Source: Chondrosia reniformis (Eukaryota > Porifera > Demospongiae > Chondrillida > Chondrillidae). Taken from it: a DNA stretch of 64,000 bases. Every line of letters starts with the position of its first letter. The first letter of the stretch is position 1. The notes under the pieces are model-generated. The model had not been told where the DNA came from, did not search any database, and worked only from the letters and a program-made list of their open reading frames with translations. The position numbers and the translations under genes were made by a program. The stretch covers positions 2,542,001 through 2,606,000 of the forward strand of contig OX359191.1 of NCBI GenBank assembly GCA_947172415.1, written 5' to 3'. Shown here one piece after another: positions 1,334 to 39,729 of the stretch.

Positions 1334-1339
1334 GTTGTA

Positions 1340-2018: not shown

Positions 2019-2064
2019 AGTTACAGTTACAGTTACGGTTACAGTTACAGTTACAGTTACAGTT
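2019..2064. repeat. Hexamer microsatellite (TTACAG)n
   Basis: About seven tandem copies of TTACAG with one G variant, inside an intron of the minus-strand pseudogene. It is followed by an A-rich stretch (about 2100-2180) built of GAAAAAAT-like words. Confidence 0.9.
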
Positions 2065-2320
2065 TAACTGTTAAAGTTAAACATAATAAAATAATTAAGT
2101 TTAAATGAAAGAAAAAATGAAAAAATGAAAAAAAAATTAAAAAAGAAAAAAGAAAAAAGATTAAAAAATGAAAAAAACATTTTCTTTTCTTCCTTTAAAA
2201 TTAAGTGTACAGACTTACTGGGACTTGTAGAAGCAAAAGATCAAGACTCCCATTGGATCTGGCTTTCCTTAAACATGTCCCAAGTAAATAGGCCAGAATC
2301 TTGAGACACTTGATTTCATC

Positions 2321-2344
2321 TATATATATATATATATATATATA
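2321..2344. repeat. (TA)n microsatellite
   Basis: Twelve uninterrupted TA dinucleotides in intronic sequence of the minus-strand pseudogene. Confidence 0.9.
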
Positions 2345-3718: not shown

Positions 3719-3960
3719 GTATAATCAAAGAAAATAGAAGGTTTCGGTCACGTAAAGGCCTTACTTCCTCAGCTATTATACGACGTTAATAATAGCTGAT
3801 GAATTAAGGCTTACGTGACCGAAACGTTCTATTCTTCTTTTGATTAATAACGTAGTATAATCAAAAGAAAAACGTTCTATTCTTCTTTTGATTATTAGCG
3901 TAGTATAATCAAAAGAAAAATAGAACGTTTCGGTCACGAAGGCCTTTATTGGCCTTCCTC
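3719..3960. repeat. Foldback (hairpin) repeat element
   Basis: The words AATAGAACGTTTCGGTCACG and their reverse complement alternate three to four times, joined by GATTATTAACGTAGTATAATC-like palindromes. The segment can fold into several overlapping hairpins. It lies in an apparent intron of the minus-strand pseudogene and carries no reading frame. This is typical of a foldback MITE. Confidence 0.75.
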
Positions 3961-5097
3961 CGTCGTTGGCCTTCCTCCACTATACTATCATAAGTTTTCA
4001 CTATTGATAATTTAACATCGATAACGAGTAGTGATGCCTCGTGACGTTTCAGTGGCTGTTGCTCCACTTCACGCGCAGGTCACATGCTAGAGACACTTCC
4101 GCCTGGAATGTGACACCTCTGTAGGCGCTAATATAACGTTTACAAAAATTGGAAATTCGGAGACATGTTCCATATGCGTTTCTCTTTTTTGAGGCAGATC
4201 CCTCATCATCTACTCGATTATTATTAATTTTCCTTACTCCTCTGTTGTATTCTTTAAAGCGTGATCTTATAGCTTCAGAAACACCAGACTATATCACATC
4301 AGAAAAATTGCTTAAAGGAGAAGGCGTATATACACATGCACATTTGTACGTAATTAATTCTTAACTGAAAACATGCATTACATATCATTACATAATAAAA
4401 AAGATTATAACAGAAATTTCAATAAACTTACTGCAGGGTTATGGCCTGGTGTCTTTAGAGAAGGATATTTTGCTATAACTTGTAACGCAACCCTGTGCCT
4501 TTCCTCTTGTGTGGGGTGTCTTCAAAAGCTAAACATTGTTCGTGATACCCCACTAATCAATTCCCTAAAAGCCTTAACTGTGATGGTTTGCTTCTGAAGA
4601 AGCAAAGCTACCTCAAGAGGGAAATTTGGGAATGGAAATGGATCAGGTATTTCCTGGTCTTTATCATCAAGCACTATACATTTTCCCGCCTTTTCATTTG
4701 TAACATCTTTCAGTGGCATCTATACATATAAAAGAGAATGTTATATAATTAACAGGTATGACATATATACTTACAAATTTTATAATTAATAAAATAATGA
4801 AATATTATATAATACACACTCGTTAATATATGGAATATTGCAACTGGAACACATACATGAACATACACCTAGAAAGGCATGAATACTTCTTTTATAGGCA
4901 TGTGCAAAAAGAAATGTAAACAGCTAATATAGTTTCTATATTTTAAACCAGAGATGATGATCTGATCACCTTTGAGTCAGGACTATCCTTTTTATTCCAC
5001 TTATTTGGTTCCACTTAAGATTTTTGACCCTGCCTTAATGGTACAGCAGTAAATGTAAATATACTCGTTCCATTCTTCAGCAAAAATGCTGAAGAGT

Positions 5098-9900: not shown

Positions 9901-10235
9901 GTTCTATATATCTTATATCCTATATATATATATAGTATATATCTTATATGTATGTTATATATCTTATATATTACATATATATGTAGAGTAAAAAGTGTGA
10001 TATAAATAGGACTTCATTAACAAAATATATAGGGTGACCCTCGTGACCGAGGATCTTACGGATGACATCATCTGGATACAGAGATCGAGGAAGCCCTGGT
10101 TCAATACCAGGTTGGATCACCTGAAAAAAGAAAAAAAACATACAACTTATATATGTTCTATATATCTTATATATTATATATATATATAGAATATATCTTA
10201 TATGTATGTTATATATCTTATATATTACATATATA
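6969..10235 (+). repeat. ~250-bp tRNA-like satellite, block 1
   Basis: Tandem units of 240-250 bp. Each has (a) GTAGAGTCAAAAGTGTGATA followed by a short conserved stretch ending in CATCATATATTG, (b) an 89-nt tRNA-like module starting GGTGACCC and ending GGGTCACC, (c) an A-rich tract GAAAAAAGAAAAAAAC, and (d) about 100 bp of TATATA-rich spacer. The first unit abuts the broken transposase gene. Units at 7593 and 8561 are nearly identical (968 bp apart), indicating a four-unit higher-order repeat. Short reading frames in each unit (for example DLTDDIIWIQ) are by-products of the repeat. Confidence 0.95.
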
Positions 10236-10753
10236 CAGTGGAGTGCACCTAATTTGAATATCCAGGGAATCAGGAAAAATTTGAAATAACAGAAATTTTG
10301 AATTATCAGGATTATGTACAAAATAGTAAAGTGATATCTAAACACCAAATATACATTTGAAATATAATGAAAAAGAGAAAATTACGCAGCCAAGTAGCCG
10401 TAGCAATGTCCTTTTCCTTCTTTCCAGAAGGAGCGTTGTCCACGAGATCGATAATCTCTAGTTTTCGTTCCAGAATAAGTGATTGGTACCATGAACGTTG
10501 CAAAGCTAGAGAATAACACCGTACTGAGAATGATTAATGACGATTTAGCTAAAATTCTTAACCGTTAAAGGTGCAATTGCCACCTAAATAACTTTGAGCT
10601 CGCTTATTTGTGTTGAAATACTTCGTATTCTCTACGAAATAAACAAAAATTCCCTACGAAATTGATCTACTGGGACTATAAAGGGAACCGGAGTTCTATT
10701 CGAAATAGGCGAAATTTCGTCGACAATGGATTCGAATTAAGTGGACTGCACTG
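10236..10753 (-). mobile_element. Pogo-like MITE, copy 1
   Basis: 518-bp element with imperfect terminal inverted repeats (CAGTGGAGTGCAC against CAGTGCAGTCCAC) flanked by TA on both sides, as expected for the pogo/Tigger branch of Tc1/mariner. The minus strand near 10406-10490 reads ERKLEIIDLVDNAPSGKKEK, a CENP-B/pogo N-terminal helix-turn-helix fragment. No DDE catalytic domain is present, so the copy is non-autonomous. A second copy sits 1,531 bp downstream at the same place in the satellite unit. Confidence 0.8.
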
Positions 10754-10755
10754 TA

Positions 10756-11766
10756 TGTTGAGTTAAAAGTGCGATAAAATAGGACTTCATTAACATCATA
10801 TATTGGGTGACCCTCGTGACCAATGATCTTACGGATGACATCAACTGGATACAGAGTGCGAGGATGCCTTGGTTCAATACCAGGTTGGGTCACCTGAAAA
10901 AAGAAAAAAACATACAACTTATATATTTTCTTTATATCTCATATATTATATATATATAGTATATATCTTATATGTATGTTATATATCTTATATATTACAT
11001 ACATATGTAGAGTCAAAAGTGTGATATAAATAGGACTTCATTAACATCATATATTGGGTGACCCTCGTGACCGATGATCTTACGGATGACATCATCTGGA
11101 TACAGAGATTGAGGATGCACTGGTTCAATACCACTTGGAGTCACCTGAAAAAAGAAAACACATATTATTTATATATGTTCTATATATCTTATATATTATA
11201 TATATAGAGTATATATCTTATATGTATATTATATATCTTATATATTCCATATATATGTAGGGTCAAAAGTGTGATATAAATATGACTTCATTTATATCAT
11301 ATATTGGGTAACCCTCGTGACCGATGATCTTACGGATGACATTATCTGGATACAGAGATCAAGGATGCCCTGGTTAAATACCAGGTTGGGTCACCTGAAA
11401 AAAGAAAAAAAACATGCAACTTATATATGTTCTCTATATCTTATATCCTATATATATATATAGTATATATCTTATATGTATGTTATATATCTTATATATT
11501 ACATATATATATATGTAGAGTAAAAAGTGTGATATAAATAGGACTTCACTAACAAAATATATAAGGGACCCTCGTGACCGAGGATCTTACGGATGACATC
11601 ATCTGGATACAGAGATCGAGGAAGCCCTGGTTCAATACCAGGTTGGATCACCTGAAAAAAGAAAAAAAACATACAACTTATATATGTTCTATATATCTTA
11701 TATATTATATATATATATAGAATATATCTTATATGTATGTTATATATCTTATATATTACATATATA
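10756..11766 (+). repeat. ~250-bp tRNA-like satellite, block 2
   Basis: Four more units between the two pogo-like MITE copies. The MITE plus its flanking units is repeated with an offset of about 1.53 kb, so the array grew here by block duplication after the MITE inserted. Confidence 0.93.
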
Positions 11767-12290
11767 CAGTGGAGTGCACCTAATTTGAATATCCAGGGAA
11801 TCAGGAAAAATTTGAAATAACAGAAATTTTGAATTATCAGGATTATGTACAAAATAGTAAAGTGATATCTAAACACCAAATATACATTTGAAATATAATG
11901 AAAAAGAGAAAATTACGCAGCCAAGTAGCCGTAGCAATGTCCTTTTCCTTCTTTCCAGAAGGAGCGTTGTCCACGAGATCGATAATCTCTAGTTTTCGTT
12001 CCAGAATAAGTGATTGGTACCATGAACGTTGCAAAGCTAGAGAATAATACCGTACTGAGAATGATTAATGACGATTTAGCTAAAATTCTTAACCGTTAAA
12101 GGTGCAATTGCCTCCTAAATAACTTTGAGCTCGCTTATTTGTGTTGAAATACTACTGTATTCTCTATATACGAAATAAACGAAAATTCCCTACGAAATTG
12201 ATCTACTGGGACTATAAAGGGAACCGGAGTTCTATTCGAAATAGGCGAAATTTCGTCGACAATGGATTCGAATTAAGTGGACTGCCCTGT
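11767..12290 (-). mobile_element. Pogo-like MITE, copy 2
   Basis: 524-bp near-duplicate of the element at 10236, with the same terminal repeats, the same TA flanks and the same helix-turn-helix remnant on the minus strand. It differs by a few substitutions and a short insertion near 12153-12170. Identical placement within the satellite unit shows that it spread with the array and did not transpose independently. Confidence 0.8.
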
Positions 12291-12292
12291 AT

Positions 12293-13968
12293 GTTGAGTC
12301 AAAAGTGCGATAAAATAGGACTTCATTAACATCATATATTGGGTGACCTTCGTGACCGATGATCTTACGGATGACATCATCTGGATACAGAGTGCGAGGA
12401 TGCCTTGGTTCAATACCAGGTTGGGTCACCTGAAAAAAGAAAAAAAACATACAACTTATATATTTTCTTTATATCTTATATATTACATATATATAGTATA
12501 TATCTTATATGTATGTTATATAACTTATCTATTACATATATATGTAGAGTCAAAAGTGTGATATAAATAGGACTTCATTAACATCATATATTGGGTAACC
12601 CTCGTGACCGATGATCCTACGGATGACATCATCTGGATACAGAGTGCGAGAATGCCCTTGTTCAATACCAGGCTGGGTCACCTGAAAAAAGAAAAAAAAC
12701 ATACAACTTATATATGTTCTGTATATCTTATATATTATACATATAGTATATATTTGATTGTATATTATATATCTTATGTATTACATATATATGTAGAGTC
12801 AAAAGTGTGATATAAATTGGACTTCATTAACATCATATATTGGGTGACCCTCGTGACCGATGATCCTACGGATGACATCATCTGGATACAGAGTGCGAGA
12901 ATGCCCTGGTTCAATACCAGGATGGGACAGCTGAAAAAAGAAAAAACATACAACTTATATATGTTCTATACATCTTATATATTATATATATATATTATAT
13001 ATCTTATATGTATATTATATATCTTATATATTACATATATATGTAGAGTCAAAAGTGTGATATAAATAGGACTTCATTAACATCATATATTGGGTGACCC
13101 TCATGACCGATGATCTTACGGATGACATCATCTGGATACAGAGTGCGAGGATGCCCTGTTTCAATACCAGGTTGGGTCACCTGAAGAAAGAAAAAAAACA
13201 TACAACTTATATATGTTCAATATATCTTATATATTATATATACATATTATATATCTTATATGTATATTATATATCTTATATATTACATATATATGTAAAG
13301 TCAAAAGTGTGATATAAATTGGACTTAATTAACATCATATATTGGGTGACCCTCGTGACCGATGATCTTATGGATGACATCATCTTGATACAGAGATCGA
13401 GGATGCCCTGGTTCAATACCAGGTTGGGTCACCATAAAAAAGAAAAAAACATACTACTTATATATGTTCTATATAAATATAGTATATATCTTATATGTAT
13501 GTTATATATCTTATATATTACATACATATGTAGATTCAAAAGTGTGATATAAATAGGACTTCATTAACATCATATATTGGGTGACCCTCGTGACCGATGA
13601 TCTTATGGATGACATCATCTGGATACAGAGATCGAGGATGCACTGGTTCAATACCAGGTTGGGTCACCTGAAAAAAGAAAAAACATACAATTTATATATG
13701 TTCTATATATCTTATATATTATATATATATATTATATATCTTATATGTATATTATATATCTTATATATTACATATATATGTAGAGTCAAAAGTGTGATAT
13801 AAATAGGACTTCATTAACATTATATATTGGGTGACCCTCGTGACCGATGATCTTACGGATGACATCATCTGGATACAGAGATCGAGGATGCCCTGGTTCA
13901 ATATCAGGCTGGGTCAGCTGAAATAAGAAAAAACATACAACTTATATATGTTCTATATATCTTATATA
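12293..13968 (+). repeat. ~250-bp tRNA-like satellite, block 3
   Basis: About seven units with the standard layout, ending abruptly within the TATATA spacer at the 5' edge of a retroelement fragment. Confidence 0.93.
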
Positions 13969-14919
13969 ACTGATGCAATTGAAACCTGGAAATTTGGCCA
14001 TAACTGCCCCCACCCTCCTCCCCAGCAGAATGCAATCAAAAGGCTTGGGACATCCCAAGGGTTCAGAGTACTTTTGAAGCCATTCTTAGACTTCTTGCCA
14101 CCTCAACAAAGGAATCGGGGGCGTGGCTTAATACCCTACCAGTATCTTCATTGGGTCTGCGACTGGATGATAATTCCATCAGGATTGCTGTGGGTCTCCG
14201 CCTTGGTGCCCCTTTATGCAGAGTACACACTTGCCAGCTTTGCGGTGGTGAGGTGGATGAGCTAGCCCTGCATGGCCTTAGTTGTAATAGGAGTGCTGGT
14301 CGTCATCCTCGCCATTCAGCGATTAACGACATCCTCAAGAGAGGCCTTGCTTCCGCAGGAATCCCTTCGATTCTTGAGCCCCCAGGCCTTTCTAGGTGTG
14401 ATGGAAAAAGACCAGACGGTGTTACTGTAACACCCTGGAAGACAGGCCTAAACCTCATCTGGGATGCCCCATGTGTGGATACCTTTGCCGCCTCCCACAT
14501 CATACATGCTACAAGGGAGGCTAGAGCAGTTGCCAACCAAGCTGAGCTCAGGAAAAAGGCCAAATATAGCCTCCTCTCCAGATCAAACATCTTCCTCCCA
14601 TTCGCAGTTGAGACATCTGCAGCCTTTGGACAAGAGGCTCTTCTATTTTGCTCCGACTTAGCCAGAAGAATACGATCCAGAAACCAAGAAAACAATTCTT
14701 ATATGTTCCTGATACAACAACTATCTATTGCTATTCAAAGAGGCAACACTGCTGCAATCATGGGATCAGCCCAATGCAGCCTCTCTGAACTATTTGACAA
14801 TGACTCTATTTATTGACATAAAATTAGGTTAGTGGTTTATTGTTATTCAATGTATGGTTTAATAATAAGTGTTAACAGAATTACTCTTGTAACTGTAACG
14901 TTCTTTTACTAATGATTAA
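13969..14919 (+). mobile_element. 5'-truncated retroelement insertion
   Basis: A non-satellite block of about 950 bp splits the TATATA spacer of one unit. It holds the C-terminal part of a retroelement protein (14004-14816) and about 100 bp of non-coding tail. 5' truncation with a retained 3' end is typical of target-primed reverse transcription. No target-site duplication is obvious because the flanks are low-complexity TA. Confidence 0.7.
14004..14816 (+). pseudogene. Retroelement C-terminal region, zinc knuckle plus PD-(D/E)XK-like
   Basis: The frame is open from 14004 to the stop at 14814-14816, about 270 codons, with a TAA just upstream at 14001. Blocks in order: AWLNTLPVSSLGLRLDD, a knuckle-like HTCQLCGGEVDE...HGLSC, then KRPDGVT followed by LIWDAPCVDTFA, which looks like the PD...D core of a restriction-like endonuclease. 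The tail reads YMFLIQQLSIAIQRGN. From memory this matches the C-terminus of reverse transcriptase proteins abundant in sponges, cnidarians and insects. The reverse transcriptase domain is absent, so the fragment cannot be autonomous. The layout resembles the retroelement C-terminus at 31.6-32.2 kb, but the sequence is clearly a different subfamily. Confidence 0.7.
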
Positions 14920-16180
14920 TAATTTATATATTATATATATATATTATATATCTTATATGTATATTATATATCTTATATATTACATACATATGTAGAGTCA
15001 AAAGTGTGATATAAATAGGACTTCATTAACATCATATATTGGGTGACCTTCGTGACGGATGATCTTACGGATGACATCATCTGGATACAGAGATCGAGGA
15101 TGCCCTGGTTCAATACCAGGTTGGGTCACCTGAAAAAAACATACAACTTATATATGTTCTATATATCTTATATGTTATATATAAATATAGTATATATCTT
15201 ATATGTATGTTATATATCTTATATATTACATACATATGTAGAGTCAAAAGTGTGATATAAATAGAACTTCATTAACATCATATATTGGGTGAACCTTGTG
15301 ACCGTTGATCTTACGGATGACATCATCTGGATACAGAGTGCGAGGATGCCCTGGTTCAATACAAGACTGGGTCACCTGAAAAAGGAAAAAAAAACATACA
15401 ACTTATATATATTCTATATATCTTATATATTATATATATATAGTATATATCTTATATGTATGTTATATATCTTATAAATTACATATATATGTAGGGTCAA
15501 AAGTGTGATATAAATAGGACTTCATTAACATCATATATTGGGTGACCCTCGTGACCGATGATCTTACGGATGACATCATCTGGATACAGGGATCGAGGAT
15601 GCCCTGGTTCAATACCAGGTTGGGTCAGGTGAAGAAAGAAAAAACATACAACTTATATATGTTCTATATATCTTATATATTATATATATATATTATATAT
15701 CTTATATGTATATTATATATCTTATATATATATTACATATAATGTAGAGTTAAAAGTGTGATATAAATAGGACTTCATTAACATCAAATATTGGGTCACC
15801 CTCGTGACCGATGATCTTACGGATGATATCATCTGGATACAGAGTGCGAGGATGCCCTGGTTCAATACCAGGTTGGGTCACCTGAAAAAAGAAAAAATAC
15901 AACTTATATATGTTCTATATATCTTATATGTTATATATATAGTATATATCTTATATGTATGTTATATATCTTATATATTACATATATATATAGAGTCAAA
16001 AGTGTGATATAAATAGGACTTCATTAACAGCATATATTGGGTGACCCTCGTGATCGAAAATCTTACGGATGACATCATCTGGATACACAGATCGAGGATG
16101 CCCTGGTTCAATACCAAGCTGGTTCACCTGAAAAAAAAAAAAAATTAAAACTTATATATGTTCTATATATGTAATATATT
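14920..16180 (+). repeat. ~250-bp tRNA-like satellite, block 4
   Basis: Five units. The block from about 15040 onward reappears about 4.06 kb downstream (from about 19100) with the same unit variants in the same order. Confidence 0.93.
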
Positions 16181-17003
16181 ATTGGGGCGAGCCTGAGCGA
16201 GCCCCACCTAGTGAGTAGTATGGCTGGAAGCGCTATGTATGTATATATATATATATATATGTCTCCATACGTTCACCCGGTAAATTTTTGCTGTGGTTGC
16301 CCGCTACAATTTTATGGTTCGTCGAACATGTCTGCGCCCGCGATCGAGGTTTGGTATTTTCCCTGATTGACATCTACCTTTTCCACTTCACTGATTTTAA
16401 CTTCTGCCTGCCCTTTCCCACTCTCTCTCCTCAGTACTTCGAACTCTTTGTGAGGTGCCTCCTCTACCTTTGAGTGGCTTGAGCCGACCATTTCAAAGCG
16501 TTGCTCTCCATCCTTGAACTGCACAGGTGTCTCTTTCACTTGCCAGTTCACGAGAGCCACTGCAGTACGAGTGGCCTGTGATTTCTCCATTGAACTGCGC
16601 AATGCAGGGTCAAAAGCAACTACCCTGACTGTCTTCTTCCCATCTGTTACTCTTCCATGAAAGTACTTCACCTTCTCTGAGTTTCTGCTCACTTTGACTG
16701 GACTCAATTCAGTGACCACACCATGTACAGTCATACCATCTGAGCACTTTTCAATTTCAGAAACATCAACTTCTTCCAGTTTCCGCTTAATCCCTGCCAT
16801 TCTCAGACACACACAACTTCTTCACTCCTCGATTTACTCAGACTCCACATTACAAATTTTGCTCACCCTTTAACTATCCATGGTGCTAGCATGGCAGCCA
16901 GTAATTGTGTGTGGAAGACACTGGCTGCACAGTACCACCACAGTATTGGCATGTGCAGCGCTTAGCAAAGCTTGTCCCATAATGCTGTGCATTTGTCTAT
17001 TTT
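16181..17003 (-). mobile_element. Insertion carrying an OB-fold-like ORF, copy 1
   Basis: An 820-bp non-satellite block interrupts the TATATA spacer. The left edge has a hairpin (GGGGC facing GCCCC) followed by CTAG, then a (TA)n run near 16241-16260. The right edge rejoins the spacer after TTGTCTATTTTA. No terminal inverted repeats or target duplication are evident. The same block occurs at 20236-21055. An element that carries an RPA-like gene and lacks TIRs could be a Helitron-type fragment, but I see no Rep/helicase sequence and the CTAG is not placed as expected. Confidence 0.55.
16312..16800 (-). CDS. RPA/OB-fold-like protein, 162 aa, copy 1
   Basis: Intact reading frame starting at the ATG at 16800 (MAGIKRKLEEVDVSEIEK) and ending in a stop at 16312. 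The pattern TVHGVVTELSPVK...KYFHGRVTDGKKTVRVVAFDP followed by AVALVNWQVKETP resembles the strand layout of a nucleic-acid-binding OB fold, as in RPA-related proteins. It has no signal peptide, membrane segment or zinc motif. From memory, similar orphan OB-like ORFs recur in sponge and cnidarian repeats. No intron is evident. The flanking block is mobile-element-like, so this is probably element-borne. The frame is also intact in the second copy. Confidence 0.5.
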   Translation of the reverse strand: MAGIKRKLEEVDVSEIEKCSDGMTVHGVVTELSPVKVSRNSEKVKYFHGRVTDGKKTVRVVAFDPALRSSMEKSQATRTAVALVNWQVKETPVQFKDGEQRFEMVGSSHSKVEEAPHKEFEVLRRESGKGQAEVKISEVEKVDVNQGKYQTSIAGADMFDEP

Positions 17004-20000
17004 ATATATATAGTATATATCTTATATGTATGTTATATATCTTATATATTACATATATATGTAGAGTCAAAAGTGTGATATAAATAGGACTTCATTAACA
17101 TCATATATTGGGTGACCCTTGTGACCGATGATCTTACGGATGACATCATCTGGATACAGAGTGCGAGGATGCCCTGGTTCAATATCAGGTAGGGTCACCT
17201 GAAAAAAGAAAAAAACATAAAACTTATATATGTTCTATATATCTTATATCTTATATATATAGTATATATCTTATATGTATGTTATATATCTTATATATTA
17301 CATATATATGTAGAGTCAAAAGTGTGATATAAATAGGACTTCATTAACATCATATATTGGGTGACCCTCGTGACGGATGATCTTACGGATGACATCATCT
17401 GGATACAGAGACCGAGGATGCCCTGGTTCAATACCAGGCTGGGTCACCTGAAAAAAGAAAAAAACATAAAACTTATATATTTTCTATATATCTCATATAT
17501 TATATGTAAAGTATATATCTTATATGTATGTTATATATCTTATATATTACATACATATGTAGAGTCAAAAGTGTGATATAAATAGGACTTCATTAACATC
17601 ATATATTGGGTGACCCTCGTGACTGATGATCTTACGGATGACATCATCTGGATACAGAGTGCGAGGATGCCCTGGTTCAATACCAGGGAGGGTCACCTAA
17701 AAAAAGAGAAAAACATACAACTAATATATGTTCTATATATCTTATATATTATATTTATAGTATATATCTTATATGTATGTTATATATCTTATATATTACA
17801 TAAATATGTAGAGTCAAAAGTGTGATATAAATAGGACTTCATTAACATCATATATTGGGTGACCTTCGTGACCGATGATCTTACGGATGACATCATCTGG
17901 ATACAGAGATCGAGGATGCCCTGGTTCAATACCAGGCTGGGTCACCTGAAAAAAACATACAACTTATATATGTTCTATATATCTTATATGTTATATATAA
18001 ATATAGTATATATCTTATAGGTATGTTATATATCTTATATATTACATACATATGTAGAGTCAAAAGTGTGATATAAATAGGACTTCATTAACATCATATA
18101 TTGGGTGACCCTTGTGACCGTTGATCTTATGGATGACATCATCTGGATACAGAGTGCGAGGATGCCCTGGTTCAATACAAGACTGGGTCACCTGAAAAAG
18201 GAAAAAAAACAAACAACTTATATATATTCTATATATCTTATATATTATATATATATAGTATATATCTTATATGTATGTTATATATCATATAAATTACATA
18301 TATATGTAGGGTCAAAAGTGTGATATAAATAGGACTTCATTAACATCATATATTGGGTGACCCTCGTGACCGATGATCTTACGGATGACATCATCTGGAT
18401 ACAGGGATCGAGGATGCCCTGGTTCAATACCAGGTTGGGTCAGGTGAAGAAAGAAAAAACATACAACTTATATATGTTCTATATATCTTATATATTATAT
18501 ATATATATTATATATCTTATATGTATATTATATATCTTATATATTACATATATATGTAGAGTTAAAAGTGTGATATAAATAGGACTTCATTAACATCATA
18601 TATTGGGTGACCCTCGTGACGGATGATCTTACGGATGACATCATCTGGATACAGAGACCGAGGATGCCCTGGTTCAATACCAGGCTGGGTCACCTGAAAA
18701 AAGAAAAAAACATACAACTTATATATTTTCTATATATCTCATATATTATATATAAAGTATATATCTTATATGTATGTTATATATCTTATATATTACATAC
18801 ATATGTAGAGTCAAAAGTGTGATATAAATAGGACTTCATTAACATCATATATTGGGTGACCCTCGTGACTGATGATCTTACGGATGACATCATCTGGATA
18901 CAGAGTGCGAGGATGCCCTGGTTCAATACCAGGTTGGGTCACCTGAAAAAAGAAAATATACAACTTATATATGTTCTATATATCTTATATGTTATATATA
19001 TAGTATATATCTTATACGTATGTTATATATCTTATATATTACATATATATATAGAGTCAAAAGTGTGATATAAATAGGACTTCATTAACATCATATATTG
19101 GGTGACCTTCGTGACCGATGATCTTACGGATGACATCATCTGGATACAGAGATCGAGGATGCCCTGGTTCAATACCAGGTTGGGTCACCTGAAAAAAACA
19201 TACAACTTATATATGTTCTATATATCTTATATGTTATATATAAATATAGTATATATCTTATATGTATGTTATATATCTTATATATTACATACATATGTAG
19301 AGTCAAAAGTGTGATATAAATAGGACTTCATTAACATCATATATTGGGTGACCCTTGTGACCGTTGATCTTATGGATGACATCATCTGGATACAGAGTGC
19401 GAGGATGCCCTGGTTCAATACAAGACTGGGTCACCTGAAAAAGGAAAAAAAACAAACAACTTATATATATTCTATATATCTTATATATTATATATATATA
19501 GTATATATCTTATATGTATGTTATATATCATATAAATTACATATATATGTAGGGTCAAAAGTGTGATATAAATAGGACTTCATTAACATCATATATTGGG
19601 TGACCCTCGTGATCGAAGATCTTACGGATGACATCATCTGGATACAGGGATCGAGGATGCCCTGGTTCAATACCAGGTTGGGTCAGGTGAAGAAAGAAAA
19701 AACATACAACTTATATATGTTCTATATATCTTATATATTATATATATATATTATATATCTTATATGTATATTATATATCTTATATATTACATATAATGTA
19801 GAGTTAAAAGTGTGATATAAATAGGACTTCATTAACATCAAATATTGGGTCACCCTCGTGACCGATGATCTTACGGATGATATCATCTGGATACAGAGTG
19901 CGAGGATGCCCTGGTTCAATACCAGGTTGGGTCACCTGAAAAAAGAAAAAATACAACTTAAATATGTTCTATATATCTTATATGTTATATATATAGTATA

Positions 20001-20235
20001 TATCTTATACGTATGTTATATATCTTATATATTACATATATATATAGAGTCAAAAGTGTGATATAAATAGGACTTCATTAACATCATATATTGGGTGACC
20101 CTCGTGATCGAAGATCTTACGGATGACATCATCTGGATACACAGATCGAGGATGCCCTGGTTCAATACCAAGCTGGTTCACCTGAAAAAAGAAAAAAAAT
20201 TAAAACTTATATATGTTCTATATATGTAATATATT
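17004..20235 (+). repeat. ~250-bp tRNA-like satellite, block 5 with higher-order repeat
   Basis: Thirteen units. Units at 17361, 17610 and 18105 recur at 18607, 18856 and 19348, an offset of about 1,244 bp, so a five-unit higher-order repeat is present. Superimposed is the 4.06-kb duplication of the segment that includes the OB-fold insertion. Confidence 0.93.
18855..18943 (+). other. Representative tRNA-like module of the satellite
   Basis: Shown for one unit. GGTGACCC (18855-18862) is fully complementary to GGGTCACC (18936-18943), like an acceptor stem. CCTGG-TTCAATA-CCAGG (18917-18933) is a perfect T-arm with a 5-bp stem and 7-nt loop, and it contains GGTTCAATACC, close to the Pol III box B consensus. 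The upstream TGACTGATGATCTTACGG (TGACCGA in most units) weakly resembles box A of class II (Leu/Ser) tRNAs. Two extra T residues separate the T-arm from the acceptor-like strand, and no clear anticodon arm forms. I read it as a decayed tRNA-derived SINE head, not a functional tRNA gene. Confidence 0.55.
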
Positions 20236-21055
20236 ATTGGGACGAGCCTGAGCGAGCCCCACCTAGTGCGTAGTATGGCTGGAAGCGCTATGTATGTATA
20301 TATATATATATATATGTCTCCATACGTTCACCCGGTAAATTTTTGCTGTGGTTGCCCGCTACAATTTTATGGTTCGTCGAACGTGTCTTCGCCCGCGATC
20401 GAGGTTTGGTATTTTCCCTGATATACATCTACCTTTTCCACTTCACTGATTTTAACTTCTGCCTGCCCTTTCCCACTCTCTCTCCTCAGTACTTCGAACT
20501 CTTTGTGAGGTGCCTCCTCTACCTTTGAGTGGCTTGAGCCGACCATTTCAAAGCGTTGCTCTCCATCCTTGAACTGCACAGGTGTCTCTTTCACTTGCCA
20601 GTTCACGAGAGCCACTGCAGTACGAGTGGCCTGTGATTTCTCCATTGAACTGCGCAATGCAGGGTCAAAAGCAACTACCCTGACTGTCTTCTTCCCATCT
20701 GTTACTCTCCCATGAAAGTACTTCACCTTCTCTGAGTTTCTGCTCACTTTGACTGGACTCAATTCAGTGACCACACCATGTACAGTCATACCATCTGAGC
20801 ACTTTTCAATTTCAGAAACATCAACTTCTTCCAGTTTCCGCTTAATCCCTGCCATTCTCAGACACACACAACTTCTTCACTCCTCGATTTACTCAGACTC
20901 CACATTACAAATTTTGCTCACCCTGAAACTATCCATGGTGCTAGCATGGCAGCCAGTCATTGTGTGTGGAAGACACTGGCTGCACAGTACCACCACAGCA
21001 TTGGTATGTGCAGCGCTTAGCAAAGCTTGTCCCATAATGCTGTGCATTTGTCTAT
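20236..21055 (-). mobile_element. Insertion carrying an OB-fold-like ORF, copy 2
   Basis: Near-identical to the block at 16181-17003, offset about 4.06 kb, with the same flanks inside the satellite spacer. The shared flanking unit variants show that this is a segmental duplication of the array, not a second transposition. Confidence 0.6.
20367..20855 (-). CDS. RPA/OB-fold-like protein, 162 aa, copy 2
   Basis: Starts at the ATG at 20855 and stops at 20367, the same length as the ORF at 16312. The two proteins differ at only about three residues, all near the C-terminus (VDVYQG for VDVNQG, and AGEDTFDEP for AGADMFDEP). Both copies keep the frame, but the duplication looks recent, so intactness alone is weak evidence of selection. 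The function inferred from the OB-like pattern is single-stranded nucleic-acid binding. Confidence 0.5.
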   Translation of the reverse strand: MAGIKRKLEEVDVSEIEKCSDGMTVHGVVTELSPVKVSRNSEKVKYFHGRVTDGKKTVRVVAFDPALRSSMEKSQATRTAVALVNWQVKETPVQFKDGEQRFEMVGSSHSKVEEAPHKEFEVLRRESGKGQAEVKISEVEKVDVYQGKYQTSIAGEDTFDEP

Positions 21056-22592
21056 TTTATATATATAGTATATATCTTATATGTATGTTATATATCTTAT
21101 ATATTACATATATATGTAGAGTCAAAAGTGTGATATAAATAGGACTTCATTAACATCATATATTGGGTGACCCTTGTGACCGATGATCTTACGGATGACA
21201 TCATCTGGATACAGAGTGTGAGGATGCCCTGGTTCAATATCAGGTTGGGTCACCTGAAAAGAGAAAAAAAACATAAAACTTATATATGTTCTATATATCT
21301 TATATCTTATATATATAGTATATATCTTATATGTATGTTATATATCTTATATATTACATATATATGTAGATTCAAAAGTGTGATATAAATAGGACTTCAT
21401 TAACATCATATATTGGGTGACCCTCGTGACGGATGATCTTACGGATGACATCATCTGGATACAGAGACCGAGGATGCCCTGGTTCAATACCAGGCTGGGT
21501 CACCTGAAAAAAGAAAAAAACATACAACTTATATATTTTCTATATATCTCATATATTATATATAAAGTATATATCTTATATGTATGTTATATATCTTATA
21601 TATTACATACATATGTAGAGTCAAAAGTGTGATATAAATAGGACTTCATTAACATCATATATTGGGTGACCCTCGTGACTGATGATCTTACGGATGACAT
21701 CATCTGGATACAGAGTGCGAGGATGCCCTGGTTCAATACCAGGTAGGGTCACCTGAAAAAAGAGAAAAACATACAACTAATACATGTTCTATATATCTTA
21801 TATATTATATTTATAGTATATATCTTATATGTATGTTATATATCTTATATATTACATAAATATGTAGAGTCAAAAGTGTGATATAAATAGGACTTCATTA
21901 ACATCATATATTGGGTGACCTTCGTGACCGATGATCTTACGGATGACATCATCTGGATACAGAGATCGAGGATGCCCTGGTTCAATACCAGGCTTGGTCA
22001 CCTGAAAAAAGAAAAAATACACACAACTTATATATGTTCTAAATATCTTATATATTATATATATAGTATATATCAGATATGTATATTATATATATATCTT
22101 AAATATTACATATATATGTAGAGTCAAAAGTGTGATATAAATAGGACTTCATTAACATCATATATTGGGTGACCCTCGTGACCGATTATCTTACGGATGA
22201 CATCATCTGGATACAGAGTGCGAAGACACCCTGGTTCAATACCAGGTAGGGTCACCTGAAAAAAGAGAAAAACATAGAATTTATATATGTTCTATATATC
22301 TTATTTATTATATATATAGTATTTATATATCTTATATGCACGTTATATATCTTATATATCACATATATATGTAGAGTCAAAAGTGTGATATAAATAGGAC
22401 TTCATTAACATTATATATTGTGTGACCCTCGTGACCGATGATCTTACGGATGACATCATCTGGATACAGAGATCGAGTAGGCTCTGGTTCAATACCAGGC
22501 TGGGTCACCTCAAAAAAGAGAAAAAACATACAACTTATATATGTTCTATACATCTTATATATATTATATATATAGTATATATCTTATATGTA
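21056..22592 (+). repeat. ~250-bp tRNA-like satellite, block 6
   Basis: Six units of the standard layout. The first part continues the 4.06-kb duplication: units at 17361 and 17610 correspond to those at 21417 and 21666. The correspondence fades after about 21970. Confidence 0.93.
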
Positions 22593-22947
22593 CAGTAGAA
22601 CCTCGGTTATCCGAACCTCAATTAACTGGCTGCTCGGATTATCCGGACTCCAAGGTCGCATAATCTTATTAACGCCCATCGTTTTTTTGCGAAGTAATGG
22701 CTAGTTCGAGTGGCTCTGCAAAGAAAAGGAAGCGCTTAGTTCTTCCCCTAGAGAGCAAGATAGCTATACTGGAGCGACTGAAGGCTGGAGCCACCCAAGC
22801 CCAGCTTGCAGAGGAGTACGGGATCAGAAGTTCGACCGCTGGCGATATCAAAATTACATATTCATTAGGATGATTCACATATCCGGCCGTTGCACTTATC
22901 CGGCCATAGCTTGATCCCATTGAGGCCTGACAACGGAGGTTCTACTG
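22593..22947 (+). mobile_element. Pogo/Tigger-like MITE with HTH mini-ORF, copy 1
   Basis: 355-bp element beginning CAGTAGAACCTCGGTTATCC and ending in the inverted counterpart GGAGGTTCTACTG, flanked by TA duplications (22591-22592 and 22948-22949). Such termini are typical of pogo/Tigger/Jerky-type elements. It carries only the N-terminal helix-turn-helix coding part of a transposase. Confidence 0.85.
22697..22873 (+). CDS. CENP-B-type HTH fragment of pogo-like transposase, 58 aa
   Basis: ATG at 22697, stop TGA at 22871-22873. The product begins MASSSGSAKKRKRLVLP, then LESKIAILERLKAGATQAQL and AEEYGIRSSTAGDIK. This is the psq/CENP-B N-terminal helix-turn-helix that binds the transposon ends in pogo-like transposases. 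The basic KKRKR stretch could be a nuclear localisation signal. The DDE domain is missing: the frame ends after DIKITYSLG in non-homologous sequence. It could be a plain remnant of internal deletion or a small DNA-binding protein. Confidence 0.55.
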   Translation: MASSSGSAKKRKRLVLPLESKIAILERLKAGATQAQLAEEYGIRSSTAGDIKITYSLG

Positions 22948-32439: not shown

Positions 32440-33308
32440 TTATTATTATATTGGTATCTGTTGTATGTATATACTAGATGTATGTACTAGTTTCTTGTTT
32501 ATGTAGTAGTTGTATACACTAGTTTTATGTACTCGTCCTATGAACTAGTGGTATATACTACTTTCTAGTTGTATGTACTAGTTGTATGTGCTAGTTGTGT
32601 GTAGAAGTTGCATACACTACTCGTATGTACTAGTTGTATGAACTTGGTATATGAACTATTTATATGTGATAGTTATAGAAATATGTACTCGTTCTATGTA
32701 CTAGTTGTATTTGCTGTTGTATTTACTGTATGTACTAGTTTTTAGAACTACTTTAACGTACTAGTTGTATGTACTAGTTGCATGTACTTATTGTATGTGC
32801 TAATTGTATGTACTAGTTGTATGTACTAGTTGTTAGTACTACTTTAACGTACTAGTTGTATGTTCTTGTTGTATGTACTAGTATTAGTTATATTTACTAG
32901 TTGTAGGTACTAATTGTACGCAGTAGTTGTTTGTACTAGCTATATACTAGTTTTATGAAGTCGTTGTAGGTACTAGTTGTATGTATATAATAGTTGTATG
33001 TCATAGTCGCATGTACAAGTTATTTACCAGTTGTACTTACTAGTTGTTTGTATATACTAGTTGTACGTAGTAGCTATGTACTCATTGGATATACAATTTG
33101 TATGTTCTAGTATTATGTACTCATTCTATGAACTAGTTGTATGTACTAGTTTCTAGTTGTATGTACATACTTTTTGTATATACTATTTATATATACTAGT
33201 TATATGTGTATGTCCTGGTTATATGTAGTAGTTGTATGTACCAGTTGTATGTACTAGTTGCCAGTACAAGTTGTTTGTACTAGCTGTATTTACTAGTTAT
33301 AGTAGGTA
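32440..33308 (+). repeat. 13-bp satellite, CTAGTTGTATGTA orientation
   Basis: Between the two retroelement complexes. Its first 130-150 bp form part of the inverted duplication at 30302-32592. It ends at GTAGGTAC, where a 5'-truncated retrotransposon copy begins. Confidence 0.95.
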
Positions 33309-36110
33309 CAATGCTGCAATGCCAGACCATAAAACCACAAAGGTAGAGCTAACTACAAGAGTTAGTAGAATCCGAAGAGGTCAAAGTCTCTTGAGACTAA
33401 ACCTTGTGGAACCTTACTCGCGTGGTGTAGCCACCCTAACTGGGACTGTGGAGGAAGGTGTGAGGGCCCAGGGAACAGCTTCACCAAGTTCAGGCTGGGA
33501 CTGAACAAAATGGTGAGCTGTTTACAGGCCCTGTTGAAACTCCCACACATGATTATCCTAGTCTCAGGACAAGTGGCAATGATCACCTGATGCAACTTTT
33601 AGGCAAAGCCAAAGATGCCTGTCTCTGAAAGAAACCTGGAGATTTTGTTGATTGAAAACCCTGTGGGGCGGTGCGGTTCAACCATGTTGATACGGCACTG
33701 CTTCAGGAGGCCAATGATTGGGTGGAGAAAGAGTGACAGGAAGGCCCTGGTCGGCCTGGCACCTGAAATGCCTGGTCCACTCTGTTGCTATGGCTGTGAG
33801 GGGAAAAACAACCTACAAATCGCAGCCATGCAACCAGGGAAGGAAATCAGACAATCAGAAGGGTAGTTAGAGACAGAGAGGTCACATAAGTGACAAGAAG
33901 GCCAAAGGCCTTTGGATTAGAAGACTGCTTGCCTGGTTGGATGTGGAAATAGCGCGTCAACAGAATAATAATCCTATGACCAAACGCCAGAAAGTTCTCT
34001 GAAGAAAGCTTAGGAGGGAGTTCCATTCATTAAACCTGAATGTGCTGATCAGAGCTCGGGAACAGACACTGGGGAAACTCAGGGTCTGGACCCTACAAGA
34101 GCGAAGATGAGCTGAACGCAGGAAATTCCAGGAACAAAACCACCTTTGGAATACCCAAAGGAAATTTTGTATGAATGGCAATGTTCCAACCTCCAATGAA
34201 GCTCCCTCAATTGAGGTAGTAAGAGACGTTTGGACAAAGATTGTATAGGTTCTGTTGGTAAGGTTAACAAAGACAATTTAGGGGTGAAAGAATGGCTAAA
34301 TGAAACCAAAAACCTCTGAAGGTCCCAATAGCATTGATGAGACCAAACTGAGGAAAGCCTTGAAAAAGGCAAAAAGCTGGTCAGCCCCTGGGCCAGATGG
34401 CATCCACACTTTTTGGTTGAAAATAATCGCCTCTGCACAGTCTGCCTTGGCAGATGTACTACGGAGGGTGGTGAGCGGAGATCTGTCAGTCCCAGACTGG
34501 CTTACAAGGGGTCGCACTCTACTCATTCCCAAAAAGGGTGACCCGAAAAGTGCAGCCAACTACCGACCTATTGCATGCCTCAACACAATGTACAAGGCTG
34601 TCACAGCATACATTGCATCAGAACTACTCACTTACACCTACACTAATGATCTTTTGCCTATGGCCCAAAGGGCCATGAGAAAAGGGAGGTGGGGCTGTGT
34701 GGACTGTCTACTGCTGGATCAAACAATCGGTCTAGATGCCAAAATTACTGGCAAGCCACTTAGTGTGGCATGGATCGATTATGAGAAGGCATATGACAGA
34801 GTGCCTCACAAGTGGGTGATGTAGGTGCTAAAAACCATCAAGGGCCCAGGTTGGATCAGGAGGACTATAGAGCTCTTCTCCGAACACTGGGAGACTGTGC
34901 TTGAGTTGAGGATTGTGGGGAAGGTTGTTAGGAGCACCTCTGTTAAATATAACAGGGGACTCTTCCAAGGGGACTCCTTATTGCCACTCCTCTTTTGTCT
35001 GGCCATAGCTCCATATCCCAAGTTCTTAACAGAACCAAGGGATATACCCTCTGGCATGATGGGGAAAGGAACACCATGTCAAACTTATTGTACATGGATG
35101 ACATGACAGATCCCTTACAAAATAGTGTAAGAGAATGGAGGGGAGTGGCACGTGAGCTCCAGGAGGCTCAGACTGAAAGGTTAAAAAGTAACCTAGCCGA
35201 AAAGTCTCATCAGGGCTCATACCACAGACAAGTCACAAATAGGGAGTCTTATGTGTTGCTTTCTGAGGGGAGACGCGGACCTCAAACTGAGGCTCTTATT
35301 CTTGCAGCCCAATATGATGCGCTGCACACTAGGAGGTACCAAATTAGGATTCAGAGGAATTCTAGCCTCCTAATGTGCAGAGAATGTGGCAAGGCTATGG
35401 AAACGGTCAAACACATACTAAACATGTGTGAGCGAAAGGGATTTTCCCTCTACAAAGAGAGGAATGACCGGGCAATACTGATAGTGTTGTGGAGATTGTT
35501 GAAAGAATATGGATTCAAGCAGGAAGAGCCCTGGTACAAACTAGAAGTAAAACCAGTCTATGAGAATAGGTGTGTCAAAATCTTGTGGGATCCAAGCATC
35601 CCTACAGATGAAGAAATGACAGAAAGAAGGCCAGATTTAGTGGTTGAGGATCGGCTATGTAAGTCCATCTACATTATTGAGATGTCAGTTCCTACTGACA
35701 GCAATATTAATGGAAGATGGCAAGAGAAGTTCCAAAAGTACCAGAAGTTGGCGGCTGATATGAGGAAACAATTTAGGGGCTACCGAATTAAGGTAGTCCC
35801 GATGATATTTGGTGCATTGGGGACAGTCCATACGCTCCTGGAAGACCTTAGGGGAATTCCAAAGCTGTCAAAAAGTTCAGTAGAAGTGATGAGAGCCATG
35901 CAGAGAACTGTTCTCAGTTGGGCGGTGAGGATATTGAGGCGACATCTATCAGTTGAGGGATTGGGACCTGGACGAGAAATAGTCCTGTCCCAGTCCTAGC
36001 CTGTCGACCTCTGGAAATCAGTGGTTGATTGGTGTATGGAGGTACTCCCTCCTATTATGACGGTCAACTTTGGCCCGACGTGCACCTGTCTGTTGCTGCC
36101 GGAAGGCAGA
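33309..36110 (+). pseudogene. REL-type non-LTR retrotransposon, left copy (5'-truncated)
   Basis: Begins inside the SANT-like region (NAAMPDHKTTKV) and is riddled with stops up to about 34300. The reverse transcriptase part (34300-34824) has KSWSAPGPDGIH, TLLIPKKGDPKSAANYRPI and the motif A region IDYEKAYDRVPHKWVM, then TAG. FQGDSL and, in another frame, YMDD (motif C) follow. About 200 residues of thumb are missing after YMDD. The C-terminal frame (to 35999) has a knuckle CRECGKAMETVKHILNMC and RRPDLVVEDR...YIIEMSVPTD, the PD...E core of a restriction-like endonuclease as in R2-group elements. The 3' UTR is cut at 36110 by the inverted second copy. R2-group assignment is by architecture only. 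Confidence 0.8.
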
Positions 36111-38388
36111 CAAAAGAGGAGTGGGGATAGGGAGTCTCCTTGGAAGAGTCCCCTGTTATATTTACCAGGGGTGCTCCTAACCACCTTCCCCGCGGTCCTC
36201 AACTCAAGCACAGTAGCCCAGTGTTTGGAGAAGAGCTCTATAGACCTCCGGATCCAACCCGGGCACTTGATGGTTTTTAGCACCTTCATCACCCACTTGT
36301 GAGGGACTCTGTCATATGCCTTCTCATAATCGATCCATGCCACACTAAGTGGCTTGCCCATAATTTTGGCATCCAGACCGATTGATTGATCCAGCAGTAG
36401 ACAGTCCACACAGCCCCACCTCCCTTTTCTCATGGCTCGTTGAGCCATAGGTAAAAGATCATTAGTGTAGGTGTAAGTGAGTAATTCTGATGCAATGTAT
36501 GCTGTGACAGCCTTGTACATTGTGTTGAGACACGCAAAAGGTCGGTAGTTGGCCGCACTTTTCGGGTCACCCTTTTTGGGGATGAGTAGAGTGCGACCCC
36601 TTGTAAGCCAGTCTGGGACTGACAGATCTCCGCTCACCACCCTCCATAGTACATCTGCCAAGGCAGACTGTGCAGAGGGGAGTGCTTTCCACCAAAAAGT
36701 GTGGATGCCATCCGGCCCAGGGGCTGACCAGCTTTTTGCCTTTTTCAAGGCTTTCCTCAGTTTGGTCTCATCAATGCTATCGGGACCTTCAGAGGAGGTT
36801 CTACCCACCCTCTTTTTGGTTTCCTTTAGCCATTCTTTCACCCCTGGGTCGTCTTTGTTGACCTTACCAACAGTACCTACAATCTTTGTCCAAAAGTCTC
36901 TTACTACCTCAATTGAGGGAGCTTCATTGGAGGTTGGAACGTTACCATTCATCCGGAACTTCCTTTGGGTATTCCAAAGGTGGTTTTGTTCCTGGAATTT
37001 CCTGCGTTCAGCCGATCTTCGCTCTTGTAGGGTCCAGACCCTGAGTTTCCCCAGTGTCTGTTCCCGAGCTCTGATCAGCACATTCAGGTTTAATGAATGG
37101 AACTCCCTCCTAAGCTTTCTTCGGAGTACTTTCTGGCGTTTGGTCATAGGATTATTATTCTGTTGACGCGCTATTTCCACATCCAACCAGGCAAGCAGTC
37201 TTCTAAACCTAAGGCCTTTGGCCTCCCTGTCACTTATGTGACCTTCCTGTCTCTTACTTCCCTTCCGATTATCTGATTTCCTTCCCTAGTTGCATGGCTG
37301 CGATTCGTAGGTTGTTTTTCCCCTCACAGCCATAGCAACAGAGTAGACTAGGCAGTTCAGGTGCCAGGCCGACCTAGGGCCTTCCTGCCACTCTTTCTCC
37401 ACCCAATCATTGGCCTCCTGAAGCAGTGCCGTATCAACATGGTTGAACCGCACCGCCCCACAGGGTTTTCAATCAACAAAATCTCCAGGTTTCTTTCGGA
37501 GACAGGCATCTTTTGCTTTGCCTAAAAGTTGCATCAGATTATCATTGCCACTCGTCCTGGGTCTGGGATGATCATGTGCAGGAGTTTCAACAGGGACTGC
37601 AGGCTGCTCACCATTTTGTTCAGTCCCAGCCTGAACTTGGTGAAGCTCCTCCTGTCCCTGGGCTCCCACACCTTCCTCCACAGTCCCAGTTAGGGTGGCT
37701 ACACCACAAGAGTCAGGTTCCACAAGGTTTAGTCTCGAGAGACCTTGACCTCTGCGGATTCTACTAACTCTTGTAGTTAGCGCTACCTTTGTGGTTTTAT
37801 GGTCTGGCATTGCAGCATTCCAAGCCTGGTACAACCGCTCGGCGTACCCCTTTTCCATGGGCTTACTTTCTCGGTAGAGCTCCATGAGGATATTATCCCT
37901 CTGAAGGTTCCAGATCACCCCTTGGATCCTTCTCCTTCTAGAGGCACCTTGCGGTGCATCATTAACCAAATCTAAATCTCGGCTACCCGTTACTTGCAGT
38001 ACTCCGTCTCCTACCAAGCTCCTTTTGGCTTGGAAGGCAAGGGTTCGACCGGTCTGAGGCAAATGTGGGTATTTGCTCAGCCATTCCCGCTCTAAACGCT
38101 TCTGATAGCCACCTGTTTTGGGTTCAGATCGCTCAAAGCAATCAATTAGTGCCCTAACCATTTCCTCGGTCCATAGGGCTGGTTGGCCCGTCACGGGGAC
38201 CGAAGAAGGGTTATTACATTCAGGTACATCTACCGGTGAGGCACCAGTGGAATCGCCTATTCTGGTTGACCCAGGGTTTTCTTCACCACTGGTGCACCTA
38301 GGCCACAGCCTGTCTTGAAAATCATTATTCTCATGACGTAACGTAACCCAGTGTAACTGCCAGACGGGGGGTTAGCCCATACTGACAG
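36111..38388 (-). pseudogene. REL-type non-LTR retrotransposon, right copy (3'-truncated)
   Basis: The minus-strand frame is open from about 38370 with no upstream ATG. Two SANT/Myb-like modules: LWTEEMVRALIDCFERSEP to TLAFQAKRSL, and QRDNILMELYRESKP to NAAMPDHKTT. A linker rich in Pro and Gln ends in a TGA at 37469-37471, and a TAG follows near 37289. The frame then runs on through RRLLAWLDVEIARQQNNN to the reverse transcriptase: SWSAPGPDGIHTFWWK, LLIPKKGDPKSAANYRPF, motif A IDYEKAYDRVPHK and motif B FQGDSLSPLLFCL. It stops at 36111 against the left copy's 3' UTR, so motif C and the endonuclease are missing. Only two stops interrupt about 750 codons, far fewer than in the left copy. The 5' leader is a predicted ribozyme (38389-38510). 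Confidence 0.8.
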
Positions 38389-38510
38389 GGAGGCTGATTT
38401 AGCCACAGGATGCCACATGAGGGGCTAAGCACCCTGCTCCGTCGGGGGGTTGAACTGGACAATACCCATCCTCTTGTCAGCTCGGAACCACAGCCTCCAA
38501 TTCCCACGAC
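38389..38510 (-). ncRNA. HDV-like self-cleaving ribozyme at element 5' end
   Basis: Reading the minus strand from 38510 as nucleotide 1. P1 is 1-7 (GTCGTGG) with 64-70 (CCCCGAC), one T-C mismatch at nucleotide 5. P2 is 13-20 (GGAGGCTG) with 115-122 (CAGCCTCC), 8 perfect pairs. P3 is 22-25 (GGTT) with 60-63 (AACC). CC at 26-27 can form P1.1 with GG at 71-72. L3 carries an extra hairpin, 28-37 with 49-59. P4 is 75-82 (CAGGGTGC) with 98-105 (GCATCCTG). J4/2 is GGCTAAAT (107-114), matching the HDV-family GGC(U/G)AA with its catalytic C at 38402. The predicted cleavage site coincides with the junction to the satellite. R2 elements use such ribozymes to free their 5' ends. The fold is by hand. Activity of this mutated copy is uncertain. 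Confidence 0.75.
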
Positions 38511-38730
38511 TGTACTAGTTGTATGTACCCTTTATATGTACTAGTTAGAAGTTTGTGTCCTAGGTATATGTACTAGTTGTATGTATTAGTTATATGTACT
38601 AGCTGTATGCATTCGCTGTATGTACTAGTTGTATGAACTAGTAATGTGTACTGGTTGTATGTACTAGTTGTAAGTACTAGTTGTACGTACTAGTTGTATG
38701 TACTAGTTGCATGTACTAGTTATATGTAAA
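38511..38730 (+). repeat. 13-bp satellite segment
   Basis: About 17 degenerate CTAGTTGTATGTA units between the retrotransposon 5' end and a TIR-like element. Confidence 0.95.
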
Positions 38731-39729
38731 CAGGCGCTGTATGGCTGTTCCGCATTACAAGTTAATTTCTCAGCATAGCAATAACTAATGCCTTTCAAAA
38801 TTTATAGTTTAAGTCTTTATGGTTAGAATAATAGTCTTACAAATTTTAAAGGGTATAAAATAAATGTTTTCTTTGAAATTCTCCGCCGAATTAGCACCCA
38901 TTTACAACACTCATAAGGTTTGTGCTAAGTTCTTGGAAGAACACAGCCAATTTCTGTACATCATTGGAATCCTAATAAGTTAAACTAAAAATCTGTCGAC
39001 CTCAGTTTTAATACAGCCTTCCTTTCTTGAGATAATAAAGAAAATGTTACAATTAAGTGTAATAAACAAGCACAAATTTGGCCATAACTAATGAAGAAGG
39101 AATCAATACTGAGGCCGACAGTTTTGTATAGCAACACTTTCTGATCACTATGAAACCATCGGCGTTGTCCAACTGTTCTTCTAGTCTAAGCACACAACGA
39201 TTTTCTCCACAACAACACTTTGCCGACATTTTCGGCAGTTGTAATGATATTCATAAATACAGTTAAATAAATTCGTTGTCATTTAACACCTATCGTGTTT
39301 CATCTAATGCAAATAGAGTTAACAGTACTTTCGGAAGTGCAATAGTCAGCAATCATTGGCTGGGCGTACATATGCATATATTTACAGCTTTGGCTAAAGT
39401 GTTACTTTATTTCTCAAGTGAAAATCGCCTAAAATCGTTCTAAGAAATGCCAAGAAAAGCCAAAGCACTTCGTGGAAGTTTGACCTTCAATTGTGGATTT
39501 GCTCGCATTACTGCTTATTTTTTATTAACCAACAAAAGGTAAGTGTTTCGAATTGGGTGAATTGGGTATTACTAGGGAGTCTTTAAAACGCAGAATCTGT
39601 ATGGACTAACGCTGTATAACTCATTCACTCTAACGATTAAAAAACGAACGTTCTAAACTAATTAGCGATTGTTAGGTGGCCATCACTATAATGCAACCTT
39701 TACCTCAGGAACAGCCATAGGCTGCCAGT
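38731..39729. mobile_element. Putative ~1-kb non-autonomous TIR element
   Basis: The left end contains GGCGCTGTATGGCTGTTCC and the right end, reverse-complemented, contains GGCAGCCTATGGCTGTTCC. The shared core TATGGCTGTTC is identical and the outer bases partly match. Both ends sit against 13-bp satellite. The interior has no convincing reading frame. No clear target-site duplication is seen, so superfamily is undetermined. Confidence 0.5.

Follow-up and report, generated by a model that had tools for sequence, protein, structure and literature searches.

We consider it quite probable, judging from the sequence, that the first 122 nucleotides of a non-LTR retrotransposon of the kidney sponge Chondrosia reniformis form an HDV-like self-cleaving ribozyme, which would release the RNA of the element at its first nucleotide, G1, from the longer transcript that contains it. 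The segment has the HDV architecture, it lies exactly at the 5' boundary of the element, it is less diverged among copies than the adjoining leader, and there is no excess of G in front of G1. Taken together, the exact start, the architecture, the lower divergence and the junctions without surplus G agree with a ribozyme that releases the RNA of the element. Against it count the mismatch U5-C66 in every row, the long L3, the lack of covariation and of a match in Rfam, and the loss of one of the two P1.1 pairs in part of the copies.

The Element and Its Copies

The window, that is, the whole stretch of 64,000 nucleotides that was analyzed, corresponds to positions 2,542,001-2,606,000 of OX359191.1, in a genome of 117,379,552 bases and 15 contigs. 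The element is a non-LTR retrotransposon of ~4.36 kb, and its copy in the window (nt 1-2404) is joined directly to an inverted and truncated second copy (Table 1). Throughout, the window position is obtained as 38511-n from element position n. A 23-base piece of the ribozyme segment was located at 196 genomic places with at most three mismatches (109 + 87), whereas the reversed control gave 0. Thirteen of the 20 fetched copies align in one piece over essentially the full ~4.36 kb, the remaining seven being partial, rearranged or masked.

Table 1. Window coordinates of the putative ribozyme, its strands and the retrotransposon copies
Feature	Window position	Strand	Element nt	Remark
HDV-like ribozyme fold (putative)	38389..38510	-	1-122	cleavage predicted immediately 5' of the G at 38510
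P1, 5' strand GUCGUGG	38504..38510	-	1-7	U5 mismatched
P1, 3' strand CCCCGAC	38441..38447	-	64-70
P2, 5' strand GGAGGCUG	38491..38498	-	13-20
P2, 3' strand CAGCCUCC	38389..38396	-	115-122
P3, 5' strand GGU	38487..38489	-	22-24
P3, 3' strand ACC	38448..38450	-	61-63
L3, 36 nt	38451..38486	-		U-CC (P1.1 side), 10-bp hairpin, then A
P1.1 GG (G71, G72)	38439..38440	-		with CC at 38484-38485 (C26, C27)
P4 stem-loop, 9 pairs	38405..38437	-	74-82/98-106	38437-38429 with 38413-38405
J4/2 GGCUAAAU	38397..38404	-	107-114	catalytic-type C109 at 38402
Leader hairpin CUGYCAG ... CUGGCAG	38357..38388	-		read in sequence; adjoins ribozyme, varies among copies
N-terminal protein region	37727..38194	-		prediction; two three-helix modules, possibly SANT/Myb-like
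Retrotransposon (ribozyme, leader, N-terminal part, part of RT)	36107..38510	-	1-2404	3' side cut off
Second copy of same element, inverted	33307..36106	+		5'-truncated, internal gap; bears CCHC knuckle and putative endonuclease motifs

Architecture of the Putative Ribozyme

As the sequence-only reading had proposed, all elements of the HDV fold are present on the minus strand in the right order, and the double pseudoknot is complete, with correct adjacency of the strands and one mismatch in P1. This helix consists of six pairs and the U5-C66 mismatch, P2 of eight perfect pairs, as claimed, and P3 of three pairs. P4, for which eight pairs had been claimed, is also there, with nine pairs that include two G-U. 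The strand J4/2 sits exactly between the 9-bp P4 and the 8-bp P2 and carries the expected catalytic-type cytidine, C109. The HDV antigenomic ribozyme shares with it GGCUAA in J4/2, a UCC that opens L3 and a GG that follows P1.

L3 is where the sponge fold departs from that model. A normal L3, as in the HDV antigenomic ribozyme, has 7-8 nt and is central to the active site, whereas that of the sponge has 36 nt and contains a hairpin (38483-38474 with 38462-38452, nt 28-37/49-59) with one bulged C, in addition to the mismatch in P1. The loop opens with U25, C26 and C27, and G28 comes directly after the CC; no base at the usual distance clearly corresponds to the conserved G of L3. What is unusual in the sponge fold is the size of L3, together with a mismatch in P1 that is fixed. 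We give roughly even chances to the specific proposal that a ribozyme with such an L3, in which a 10-bp hairpin separates the cytidines of P1.1 from P3, would free a satellite-dwelling RLE element in spite of its fixed mismatch.

An alternative inner fold, compatible with the presence of a ribozyme, would form P3 from UUG/CAA (nt 49-51/59-61) and close a 7-nt L3, UCCAGUU, so that the extra 28 nt would move out of L3 and separate P2 from P3. Such a fold has a loop of normal size with a U, CC and a nearby G, and the P1.1 CC/GG pairing can still be read in the sequence, but P2 and P3 are not contiguous in it, the 10-bp hairpin is lost and the nested part gives up ~12.7 kcal/mol of stability (-24.0 against -36.7 kcal/mol). 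We think that it is rather unlikely, the inner fold being the less certain part of the reading.

Chance Expectation and Folding Energy

The frequency with which this drawing arises by chance was estimated with dinucleotide shuffles of the first 160 nt of the window copy; the descriptors were composed after the sequence had been seen, so the figures flatter the fold. The strict descriptor, which demands a minimum of 8 pairs in each of P2 and P4, together with GGCNAA, was found at the exact start in 0 of 419,758 shuffles, and the intermediate and loose descriptors in 3 and 112 of them, respectively. For the first 160 nt of L049, the copy with an open frame that serves as reference below, the loose descriptor fits 21 of 108,548 shuffles. 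In shuffles of the element body (2591 of them, 11.3 Mb) it had 135 starts, while its sole fit in the real L049 body is at nt 1 and its sole fit over the whole window, with both strands considered, is at 38510 on the minus strand.

The energy of folding is ordinary when pseudoknots are disallowed (z -0.41); the best structure of this kind reaches -42.3 kcal/mol and omits P2. In the HDV drawing the nested part comes to -36.7 kcal/mol even with the pairs of P1 left out of the sum, so that the pseudoknot would be competitive, on a rough estimate. The comparison of 37800-38900 with the covariance models of the Rfam HDV families, made without a positive control, gave no match, neither at the gathering threshold nor at E<=10. 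Covariance models leave out pseudoknots.

The 5' Boundary and Its Flanks

Fifty distinct places were fetched, 30 of them by ribozyme match, L049 and L050 from the same list and 18 from the RT list; three (L061, L066 and L068) have no match to nt 1-200, which leaves 47. The predicted cleavage site 5' of 38510 had been equated with the boundary between element and satellite in the window, and this boundary is shared by most of the matched places: the element starts at nt 1 in 43 of the 47 matched places, at nt 2 in two, at nt 4 in one and at nt 50 in one. The number of independent places is slightly below 47 because L011/L017 and L052/L053 share flanks. The choice by ribozyme match favors intact 5' ends, not the absence of homology upstream of them.

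The main rival explanation for this exact 5' end is an internal promoter that starts at G1, with the HDV-like drawing being a coincidence or else a structured leader for translation or protein binding. A fixed start site would also yield a fixed 5' end, and the ordinary pseudoknot-free energy, the lack of covariation and the lack of an Rfam match would suit it as well. Yet a promoter would not explain the architecture, with the strict drawing absent from all the shuffles and J4/2 placed precisely between P4 and P2. A promoter-set start might also leave a cap-derived G, as inferred from other LINEs, but the base preceding G1 is G in only 5 of 43 cases (hand count), and therefore there is no excess of such a G. 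We consider the internal promoter improbable.

In the mechanism based on a ribozyme, the element would be transcribed within a longer RNA that starts in neighboring DNA, often the 13-bp satellite. The ribozyme would then fold and cut just 5' of G1, giving an element RNA that begins with a 5'-OH and could be both the messenger and the template in target-primed reverse transcription. New copies would begin exactly at G1 because the reverse transcriptase would run off at the cut end.

Upstream repeats of at least 10 bases abut G1 in six of the 13 full-length copies. Those of L039, L043, L049 and L050 look like target duplications, the 10-15 bp in front of G1 being found again at the 3' end or directly beyond it; those of L035 and L038 may reflect the periodicity of the satellite. 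The other seven have no such repeat in a search that sees only junctions without extra bases.

Parts of the 5' end are repeated in some flanks. In L023 (reverse strand, offset 1462-1500) 19 nt of the element 5' end stand twice directly before the full start, and L058 (reverse strand, near offset 381) has ~23 nt of its own 5' end in the same place, as if the reverse transcriptase had restarted at the 5' end of the template. A shorter GTCGT lies ahead of G1 in L044 and L045. Upstream of nt 1 in L044 (C6:7718364-7726363, a locus in which 3537 bases read N) there is the 3' end of another copy, then four A, GTCGT and the next G1; a ribozyme would separate the two units of this head-to-tail pair.

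The 13-bp satellite, TACTAGTTGTATG, occupies window positions 1-1339 and about 38515-38720 and is also found genome-wide. A 22-base piece of it has 13,104 exact occurrences on both strands, the first forward match on contig C1 being at 3.86 Mb among the matches listed. Long tandem arrays with units of ~249 bp and TATATA-rich stretches extend over window positions 7481-22593, also among the matches listed. By a rough measure, the 13-bp satellite is present at a level of at least 0.21 in both flanks of 10 of the 13 full-length copies, and the element may thus prefer it. The copies that were read lie in satellite or other DNA and none was recognized in rDNA, the rRNA search having covered the window.

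Conservation among Copies

Divergence was counted against L049 in 13 copies chosen by RT. Differences amount to 81/1584 (5.1%) in nt 1-122, 108/993 (10.9%) in nt 123-200 and 134/1601 in nt 201-330, where 35 come from L057 beside a deletion. With L057 set aside by hand subtraction, the values are 74/1463 (5.1%), 102/916 (11.1%) and 99/1484 (6.7%), respectively. The ribozyme segment is therefore about half as diverged as the adjoining leader and modestly less than the start of the coding region.

In the helices 92.9% of the cells are paired, compared to 35.7-48.1% in versions slid along the sequence. Compensatory changes, which the sequence-only reading had proposed to test for in other copies, did not exceed the controls: one cell is changed on both sides, whereas shuffles have 0.7 on average and slid versions 0-4, among copies with too little independent divergence. 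The sequence UAAAU at element nt 110-114 is invariant across the 27 distinct rows, and C109 is kept in 26 of them, L065 having A. The C27-G71 pair of P1.1 is lost in 8 of the 27 through change of G71, at a CpG.

The P1 mismatch had been taken as possible decay after insertion. None of the 27 distinct rows, the open-frame L049 included, has a pair at 5/66, so the mismatch is not decay of the window copy. The same observation favors another explanation, namely that an ancestral HDV-like ribozyme has by now become slow or inactive and that copies spread through what cleavage is left. There is a precedent in the R2 element of the horseshoe crab, in which all sequenced junctions have a P1 mismatch and cleavage in vitro was absent (passages of PMC3774820). 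However, the 5' ends are exact at nearly all the matched places, as described above, and 9 of the 119 RT matches fall in a 1317-codon open frame, stop-free over the matched part, which suggests recent activity. We judge this explanation unlikely.

Coding Frame and Class of the Element

The element has a single open frame with a LINE-type RT, which in L049 spans 1317 codons (nt 140-4090); in the window the frame runs downwards from position 38371 on the minus strand. The leader hairpin lies around this start: its position 126 is C or T, the pairing with G being kept through wobble, and its loop contains a second GGCTAA that includes a stop codon ahead of the open frame. In L049 no in-frame ATG appears before codon 71. 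Since this codon is already within the first of the helical modules, the start of translation may not require an AUG. Concerning the two SANT/Myb-like N-terminal modules of the sequence-only reading, two three-helix modules are indeed predicted, but their SANT/Myb identity is only weakly indicated. Variable numbers of ZF and Myb motifs are described for all early-branching LINEs (part of PMC5678591).

The L049 product matches RVT_1 (Pfam, E 2.3e-29), and no endonuclease family, APE included, was found among its Pfam matches at E<=10. Only five PDB entries match it at E<=1, of which three are named R2 and two reverse transcriptase-like protein (best 1.7e-22); among these five there is no reference for other RLE clades. 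The product also has a CCHC knuckle, CRECGKAMETVKHILNMC, which fits the spacing CX2-3CX7-8HX4C before the endonuclease that has been described for RLE LINEs, although the knuckle is present in APE LINEs too (part of PMC5678591). Hence, the knuckle does not separate RLE from APE. RPD-X14-E followed by KFQKYQK was read in the same product, and the former may be a PD-(D/E)XK-type endonuclease motif. The RT, CCHC and RPD-X14-E motifs point to an RLE-type non-LTR retrotransposon, an assignment that is only probable because RT and PDB matches and motifs are its basis and the knuckle is shared with APE LINEs.

The RT is ~29% identical to that of a solved R2, and with an R2 query other RT loci of the genome score higher (best 113.3 bits) than the element (best 79.5 bits). 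The RT active site has YMDD, which we take as a hint of the R4 clade and no more.

Comparison with Known Ribozymes

HDV-like ribozymes of R2, R4, R6, SART, RTE and Baggins were reportedly described by Ruminski et al. in 2011. Among RLE elements, the R2 and R4 clades carry such ribozymes, and cleavage at the 5' junction is documented for R4, Dong, L1 and RTE elements, Dong having been assayed behind TAA repeats and found to cleave (passages of PMC3774820). The probable RLE type of the sponge element thus speaks for the ribozyme. The suggestion that the sponge case extends the trait to a new kind of element does not hold, since 5'-junction ribozymes of the R4 clade are already published in that source. 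In the R4 clade (Ascaris R4, Bombyx Dong), as in the sponge element, the cleavage or predicted cleavage is exactly at the 5' junction. The sponge case differs in its host and in its usual surroundings of 13-bp satellite, as well as in its 36-nt L3, no enlarged L3 being mentioned in the text passages on the R4 clade.

The ribozymes of R2 elements from Drosophila and others share with the sponge one the same helices, the 5' position and the catalytic C in J4/2. Most of them cut inside the upstream 28S sequence (passages of PMC3774820), whereas the sponge cut is predicted at the element boundary, and the identity of the RTs is only ~29%, as given above. Mismatches in P1 are uncommon in HDV-like ribozymes and one has been linked to absent cleavage, while mismatches at the top of P1 occur in about a quarter of R2 ribozymes (same passages). 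Ribozymes of the drz-Agam-2 type resemble the sponge one in having an extra structured domain on the core, but it is located in J1/2 and not in L3 (part of PMC4908430). No HDV-like ribozyme from a sponge was found in the open-access literature, as represented by titles and the beginnings of abstracts, with subscription journals outside this scope.

Conclusions

The sponge element is a multi-copy retrotransposon whose 5' end is exactly where an HDV-like ribozyme fold begins. If the proposed location of the extra domain is true, L3 joins the positions, such as J1/2, at which the HDV-like family tolerates new domains. An enlarged L3 that is real and active would mean that natural ribozymes can accept a hairpin in the most constrained loop of the fold, and it would bear on both the evolution and the engineering of this fold.
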